From assembly GCF_036884655.1 (NCBI RefSeq), contig NC_088342.1:36387001-36451000 (forward strand): 64,000 nt of DNA, written 5' to 3'. This document shows positions 25,883-26,195 of this stretch, piece by piece; within the stretch, counting starts at the first letter, position 1, and each line of letters opens with the position of its first letter. The notes beneath the pieces are model-generated. The model was not told the DNA's origin, searched no databases, and saw only the letters and a program-made list of their open reading frames with translations. Both the position numbers and the translations under genes were made by a program. This DNA comes from Musa acuminata AAA Group (Eukaryota > Streptophyta > Magnoliopsida > Zingiberales > Musaceae).

Positions 25883-25921
25883 CTTAGTGTAACCTCGAGG
25901 GACTCGACCAATCACACTAAG
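25883..25921 (-). other. Leader stem-loop 1 of element A
   Basis: The outer stem CTTAGTGT / ACACTAAG is a perfect 8 bp. Inside is the invariant inner hairpin TCGAG-GGA-CTCGA. Confidence 0.75.
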
Positions 25922-25988
25922 CCTAAAAGGTAGGCAACTCTTGCCGATCACAACTCCTTATGATTCCCGTCCTGTTCGGCCTCCGAAT

Positions 25989-26023
25989 CACCATGGCCTC
26001 GAGGGACTCGACCAACCATGATG
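25989..26023 (-). other. Leader stem-loop 2 of element A
   Basis: The outer stem CACCATGG / CCATGATG gives 7 Watson-Crick pairs and one C/A position that is G:U in the sense (minus-strand) RNA. It encloses the same inner hairpin. Confidence 0.7.
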
Positions 26024-26066
26024 CTCGGTTAAGTCAACACCTTCGTTACAAGATGAGTCTGATTTG

Positions 26067-26103
26067 ATGATATACCCTCGAGGGACTCGACCAAGCATAT
26101 CAT
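26067..26103 (-). other. Leader stem-loop 3 of element A
   Basis: The outer stem ATGATATAC / GCATATCAT gives 8 pairs plus one U:G in the sense RNA. In B the same stem reads ATGATATAC / GTATACCAT: the wobble has moved but pairing is kept. Confidence 0.75.
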
Positions 26104-26159
26104 GCCCTCAGGTCACCGGTGACATCTCTATGTCGTAAGCAAGATAGCGAATCGCGATA

Positions 26160-26195
26160 TAGGTGAGTCTCGAGGGACTCGACCAACTCAACCTA
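26160..26195 (-). other. Leader stem-loop 4 of element A
   Basis: The outer stem TAGGTGAGT / ACTCAACCTA gives 9 pairs with one bulged A around the invariant inner hairpin. Confidence 0.7.

Follow-up and report, generated by a model that had tools for sequence, protein, structure and literature searches.

The results described here support the view that selection has kept a set of RNA hairpins in the leader of element A, a Ty1/copia long terminal repeat (LTR) retrotransposon of Musa acuminata (AAA Group). The element lies on the minus strand of a 64,000-nucleotide stretch of contig NC_088342.1 (assembly GCF_036884655.1, positions 36,387,001 to 36,451,000), which is referred to as the window and whose numbering is used for all its features. 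Four hairpins with a common core and unlike stems follow one another upstream of gag. The original prediction, made from the letters of the window, had called this array a selected RNA structure, and it is supported by the covariation among paralogous hairpins, by a constraint seen on the deep rather than the terminal branches of the family tree, and by a hairpin with the same GG bulge in a distant relative. The array may represent landing sites for the zinc knuckle of Gag, which would mark the genomic RNA for packaging; the probability assigned to this model is about 0.43.

The four-hairpin array

The leader of element A extends from the primer-binding site (PBS) to the gag ATG and occupies positions 25698..27497 of the minus strand. 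Its length, first estimated as 1.8 kb, is 1,800 nt, and it contains 39 upstream AUGs. The 3' edge of the array is about 190 nt upstream of the gag ATG. The 13-mer TCGAGGGACTCGA is found exactly at 25895, 25999, 26078 and 26170, with spacings of 104, 79 and 92 nt, so that all four copies originally reported are present at the sites given for them. When up to two mismatches are allowed, the window contains 11 matches to the 13-mer against 1.07 expected.

For the sense RNA, a single continuous hairpin is predicted at each site. It is built from an outer stem, a closing U.G pair, a GG bulge, the inner stem UCGAG/CUCGA and a UCC triloop. The bulge and the U.G pair below it, like the AG at the leader end described further on, had not been part of the original prediction. 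The pairs adjoining the GG bulge are U.G, followed by U.G or U-A. Hairpin 1, which is the nearest to gag (25883..25921), has an outer stem of 12 bp, hairpin 2 (25989..26023) one of 10 bp, hairpin 3 (26067..26103) one of 11 bp, and hairpin 4 (26160..26195) one of 6 + 4 bp with one bulged U; all four are on the minus strand and have the same core. The outer stems had also been recognized earlier, and they are longer than quoted at that time when they are read as sense (minus-strand) RNA. The 39 outer pairs of element A comprise 29 Watson-Crick pairs, 10 G.U pairs and no A.C pair on the sense strand, in agreement with the earlier suggestion that C/A oppositions turn into G:U pairs on the minus strand. 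Seven of the ten G.U pairs are situated in the two pairs adjoining the core, are common to the copies, and are not independent between hairpins.

The unlike stems had been said each to pair, and the cognate flanks are indeed the best of all arrangements. Among the 24 permutations of the flanks, the cognate one has the lowest summed energy (-71.3 kcal/mol, the next being -55.7 kcal/mol), and its contiguous stems have 6-12 pairs against 2-5 for non-cognate flanks. Shuffled flanks fold equally well in 3, 11, 10 and 15 cases per 1000 for hairpins 1 to 4, and each complete hairpin folds better than most of its own shuffles, with z scores of -3.76, -3.20, -2.28 and -4.42 in the same order.

Two further elements of the window, B and C, carry the array on the minus strand. 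In element B it spans 31461..31773, with cores at 31473, 31577, 31656 and 31748. The wobble in the third stem of B had been described as shifted with pairing kept, which is correct for the outer stem; the core of this hairpin contains one mismatch (TTGAGGGACTCGA) that breaks an inner pair. The array of element C (39930..40245) is partly decayed: its fourth hairpin is damaged and the loop of its first hairpin has 4 nt. The entire window was scanned for GG-bulged hairpins with an inner stem of 4-7, a loop of 3-7 and an outer stem of at least 7, limits by which hairpin 4 (outer stem of 6) and the third hairpin of B (inner mismatch) are missed. All 17 matches are on the sense strand. Sixteen of them are double counts of eight array sites, of which A and C have three each and B has two, and the remaining one, at 32987, is elsewhere in the leader of element B. 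The plus strand of the whole window gave no match, and five shuffles gave 0, 0, 1, 0 and 0.

Alternatively, the array might have no function in RNA and consist of DNA-level palindromes, for example enhancer sites, or be what remains of a duplication. In favor of this, the core forms an inverted repeat, and the presence of four copies points to duplication. This alternative is highly improbable in view of the ten G.U and zero A.C pairs on the sense strand, the confinement of the GG-bulged form to that strand, and the constraint on the outer stems in spite of their different sequences. The window has no match to any Rfam family at gathering score. The core has what we take to be a resemblance to a T-loop; a hairpin derived from a tRNA or an RNA polymerase III transcript was considered and rejected, with no tRNA gene found in 25500-27700.

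Covariation and constraint

The paralogous hairpins were aligned using all four of A, all four of B, and the second and third of C, the first and fourth of C being left out; these ten hairpins give nine distinct rows. In this alignment 92.2% of the cells pair, and two-sided changes are present in 9 of the 17 pairs. The covariation score, which comes from few rows and from a structure derived from those same sequences, is 0.516, compared to a mean of 0.232 for shuffled alignments (none of 500 shuffles reaches 0.516) and to at most 0.165 when the pairing is slid. The number of further pair types is unremarkable (18 against 16.8 in shuffles; 175 of 500). Covariation among orthologous arrays is uninformative because the copies in this genome resemble each other too closely: the arrays with at least 341 aligned bases, to which the comparison was limited by dropping shorter ones, represent 59 distinct sequences of 66, and their divergence is too low.

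The family is very large. A 17-mer from the core, TCGAGGGACTCGACCAA, has 22,880 exact copies in the 1.53-Gb genome, compared to 2 for the reversed control. A tree was built from 1.8 kb of leader and gag sequence of copies obtained from this genome, in which 71 copies were placed and 65 were kept (distinct rows with fewer than 15 gaps in the array and less than half gaps overall). Of these 65, 28 had been collected via an exact core match and 34 via similarity over 401 bp, and 3 came from the window. In one copy (L046, 1385-3212) the pieces of the array are separated and repeated.

Deep branches were defined as those leading to at least four copies, with the root branches excluded, and changes were averaged over 20 parsimony resolutions. 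The ratio of deep to terminal changes is 4:111 in the hairpins, 49:260 in the spacers between them (p=0.00025), and 319:1605 in the leader plus gag (p=3e-5). When CpG changes are removed, the ratios are 3:87 in the hairpins and 40:186 in the spacers (p=0.00042), and the outer stems alone give p=0.014. With all changes included, the ratio is 3:59 for the outer stems alone (p=0.026) and 1:52 for the core (p=0.004). The deep rate per site is 0.035 in the outer stems, 0.017 in the cores and 0.223 in the spacers. In a parsimony count that includes root branches with arbitrary root states, gag shifts as expected, its ratio of nonsynonymous to synonymous changes being 95:68 on deep and 437:190 on terminal branches (p=0.0066). 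A simpler count of shared and private variants gives p=0.0056 for the core, p=0.17 for the outer stems and p=0.0077 for both together. When deep and terminal branches are compared in this way, old copies can provide a nearly neutral standard against which RNA structure in transposable elements is judged.

Several observations limit the case for selection on the hairpins. The terminal rate per site is also lower in the hairpins (0.69 in outer stems and 0.87 in cores, against 1.18 in spacers); this slowing after insertion is far smaller than that on the deep branches. The 28 copies found by exact core match bias the sample of 65 toward intact cores. With all internal branches pooled, the contrast weakens to p=0.066 when the hairpins are compared with the spacers, and it is p=0.007 in the comparison with the leader plus gag; branches with two or three leaves may contain alleles of one insertion. 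Finally, the four stem changes on deep branches are all one-sided, three keeping the pairing and one breaking it, whereas of those on terminal branches 43 keep the pairing and 48 break it (p=0.35), the copies being too alike to decide. Of the outer-stem variants, 6 of the 10 shared and 7 of the 26 private ones keep the pairing (p=0.12).

A scan of genome contigs yielded two relatives, L082 and L083, on contigs that are taken as plant contamination in bacterial assemblies. The gag of L082 is 46% identical to that of element A by tblastn and 51% identical in alignment, and that of L083 is 35% identical. In the leader of L082 there is one hairpin with the GG bulge; its outer stem has 13 bp, the inner stem CUGCA/UGUGG replaces UCGAG/CUCGA, and a U.G pair lies below the bulge. 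The z score of this hairpin, computed for a 63-nt stretch, is -6.55; of 300 shuffles of the L082 leader, one had an outer stem of at least 7 and none had one of at least 10. The distance from the GG to the gag ATG is 492 nt in L082 and 487 nt for hairpin 4 of element A. Two other hairpins of L082, X (about 2278-2300) and Y (about 2386-2408), have unrelated outer stems and a common inner motif, CCAATAAMCTAWYATGTGAGG, which is another core; Y is well supported (z -3.40). The GG-bulge design thus appears to reach beyond one family, the outside support for it being the one strong hairpin in L082. It should be weighed against this that the GG bulge is present in one of the four candidate hairpins of L082, that X (z -1.14) and a further candidate, Z (z -0.89), are indistinguishable from shuffles, and that no GG-bulged hairpin was found in the 1.3 kb of L083 examined.

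A protein search of viral contigs returned no relative, and one exact match to the core was found among these contigs (L001, on a 60-kb contig). Plasmids and phages were searched as well and gave no relatives. When the gag of L082 was compared with the window's own genome, 136 of 22,978 candidates were scored, and the four upstream regions that were read all have an array of the element A type. In a gag match from Ensete, 71% of the query is aligned at 78% identity, the highest identity of the named matches among the 120 listed.

Possible roles in Gag binding, packaging and other processes

It is possible to outline how the array might act as a cis-acting recognition element of the Ty1/copia genomic RNA. 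Each hairpin would offer one small surface made up of the U.G pair, the bulged GG, the five invariant pairs and the UCC loop, and the sequence of the supporting stem would be free as long as it pairs. For the four surfaces, 79-104 nt apart, the most likely binding partner would be the CCHC zinc knuckle of Gag, of which there is one, and its binding would label the full-length RNA as the form to be packaged into virus-like particles. We infer that Gag is the partner, that packaging is the purpose, and that the array is lost from gag mRNA by splicing. Among the roles proposed in the original prediction, packaging by Gag is the best.

Gag of the window element carries one CCHC knuckle, CFHCGKDGHWKRNC, which differs by one residue in L082 and L083, so that CFHCGKxGHWKRNC is common to all three. 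The knuckle matches the nucleocapsid protein of human immunodeficiency virus type 1 (HIV-1; 2exf, E=2.7e-5), the Copia virus-like particle protein (8vvw, E=0.0059), and the nucleocapsid protein 1u6p (E=0.047), which is presumably of the murine leukemia virus (MLV) type. Retroviral packaging signals are situated between the PBS and gag, and the array is found in this interval as well. Unpaired guanosines are predicted in each of the conserved hairpins; they are needed for the packaging of HIV-2 RNA by HIV-1 Gag (PMC12031250). Against this role, the array is about 1.3 kb away from the PBS, and the constraint could equally be explained by a host protein or by translation control.

In the case of translation control, the hairpins would either help ribosomes to reach gag past the 39 upstream AUGs, by internal entry or shunting, or lower the translation of gag. 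This is unlikely, as four copies of one small core resemble a repeated protein site, and shunting requires one large stem. Moreover, the possible splice described below, if used, would remove the upstream AUGs, and no ATG is present in the 186 nt before the candidate donor. The position of the array, which ends so close to the gag ATG in a leader rich in AUGs, is in favor of such a role, and long structured leaders regulate translation in plant pararetroviruses (PMC5902531).

The array might also serve RNA dimerization, the hairpins opening into extended duplexes between two genomes. The sequence CTCGAG is self-complementary, and homodimers of each of the four hairpins are predicted to be 4.7 kcal/mol better than two monomers; any hairpin is capable of forming such duplexes. 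Dimerization through CTCGAG had been among the roles considered at the outset; a kissing loop formed in this way is not supported, since the palindrome is in the paired arm and the apical loop, UCC, is not self-complementary. Dimerization is very unlikely to be the role of the array.

If the hairpins are read by Gag, they can be compared to the Psi signals of HIV-1, HIV-2 and MLV, which have exposed guanosines. The two are alike in their position between PBS and gag, in having several hairpins with unpaired G, in a CCHC Gag that could read them, and possibly in a restriction to unspliced RNA. The array is unlike Psi in its four near-identical cores on unrelated stems, in the GG bulge below a triloop and in its plant Ty1/copia host, and its packaging role is a proposal. 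Operators of the MS2 coat-protein type and the iron-responsive element are likewise small hairpins that carry a bulge, separated from the loop by a few pairs, and each is read by one protein. The array has no sequence or loop in common with these, and other proteins are involved, so that the likeness is an analogy only.

Also comparable are the packaging and dimerization regions of Ty1 and Ty3, which are likewise 5' cis-acting regions of LTR retrotransposon RNA. The structures that serve packaging in these elements are described as "not clearly defined" in PMC4974528, and the word hairpin is absent from the portion of that article consulted. BARE, a barley Ty1/copia element, is similar in its untranslated leader, in its separate translated and packaged RNAs, and in splicing. 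Splicing of BARE favors a subgenomic RNA for Gag, and conserved dimerization and packaging signals, though not repeated hairpins, are mentioned in the part of PMC3735527 that was available. No description of the array was found in the literature searched, which has most subscription papers outside its coverage and thus does not imply absence from print. The sense core TCGAGTCCCTCGA occurs in no text searched, the other strand not having been searched. Little is known about the choice of genomic RNA by plant LTR retrotransposons. The array provides a compact, repeated and testable candidate, since its one small core could be mutated within a short transcript and presented to a fragment of Gag.

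Possible splicing of the leader and surroundings of element A

The sequence around the ends of the leader hints that it may be removable from gag mRNA by splicing. The AG of a candidate 3' splice site is located at 25701..25702 on the minus strand (CTTTATTTTTAG|AAAATG), 3 nt before the gag ATG. In element A, L082 and L083 alike, a U-rich tract is followed by an AG that lies 0-4 nt upstream of the gag ATG, at 2594-2595 in L082 and at about 1282-1283 in L083; the scores, which like those given below come from approximate matrices, are 4.2 in the window, 6.5 in L082 and 7.0 in L083. The AG is kept in 61 of the 66 family copies scored. The candidate donor GT (CTAG|GTAACA, 27648..27649, minus strand) is weak, with a score of 2.2; from position 1151 onward the LTR has no other G|GT, and four LTR copies in the window contain CTAG|GTAACA. 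The transcription start was assumed from a TATA-like box at 27860. The best-scoring donor-like site, at LTR position 965, is upstream of this box and was rejected. Against the use of these sites is the fact that the candidate acceptor is outscored by other AGs in all three elements and is sixth among the sites listed for A. Other donor-like sites within the leader, for example 2921 and 3005, score at least as high as the donor that was kept.

If the leader is spliced, gag mRNA would have no PBS, upstream AUGs or array, and the unspliced RNA alone would keep the array. In the corresponding splice-gated form of packaging, the 1.8-kb leader would be an intron, the GG-bulged array would be read by the Gag knuckle, only unspliced RNA would be packaged, and the array would be old, with its position and geometry preserved and its inner stems replaced from one element to another. 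This combination is doubtful. If true, it would give a plant Ty1/copia clade the retroviral arrangement. According to a 2025 review (PMC12786077), plant LTR elements are generally without introns, with exceptions that include Ogre and EVADE; splicing of BARE1 is mentioned there as well.

A possible acceptor at the leader end, which would put the array in an intron, also fits the idea that a host RNA-binding protein uses the hairpins to control nuclear export or splicing and so keeps unspliced RNA available. In the mouse, RNA elements that permit export independent of splicing are found in IAP and musD (PMC12786077). A role of this kind is quite unlikely, since the motif suggests no host protein, no Rfam family was found in the window at gathering score, and the splice is itself a candidate.

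Element A spans 20300..28995 on the minus strand. Its 1,498-bp LTRs (20300-21797 and 27498-28995) are 99.5% identical and have the termini TG..CA, and the target-site duplication TATAG is present on both flanks. The PBS, TGGTATCAGAGCC, follows immediately 3' of the LTR and is presumably of the initiator-Met type. A single open reading frame (ORF) at 23397..25697 on the minus strand contains, according to Pfam, gag (PF14223), the CCHC zinc knuckle (PF00098) and integrase domains, its matches being PF14223, PF00098, PF22936, PF13976 and PF00665; PF07727 (reverse transcriptase) is in the next ORF downstream. Element A has gag, an integrase ahead of the reverse transcriptase, LTRs, a target-site duplication and a PBS, and is thus a Ty1/copia LTR retrotransposon. 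Self-matches of the window suggest that it is nested within element B, as it appears. The first three upstream AUGs of its leader are the starts of ORFs with 97, 132 and 112 codons. Strong folding is predicted on both strands for a GC-rich part of the leader (about 27000-27370).

A second copia-type element has copies at 3095-6910 and 57497-61291, which are 87% identical, and a gag ORF at 5133-6716; the scan of the window found no GG-bulged hairpin in either copy. A GC-rich tandem array at 43687-44623 consists of about 15 copies of a 55-bp unit. The plus-strand ORF at 11500-12756 contains ankyrin repeats and DUF3420, and presumably resembles plant genes of the NPR/BOP type.
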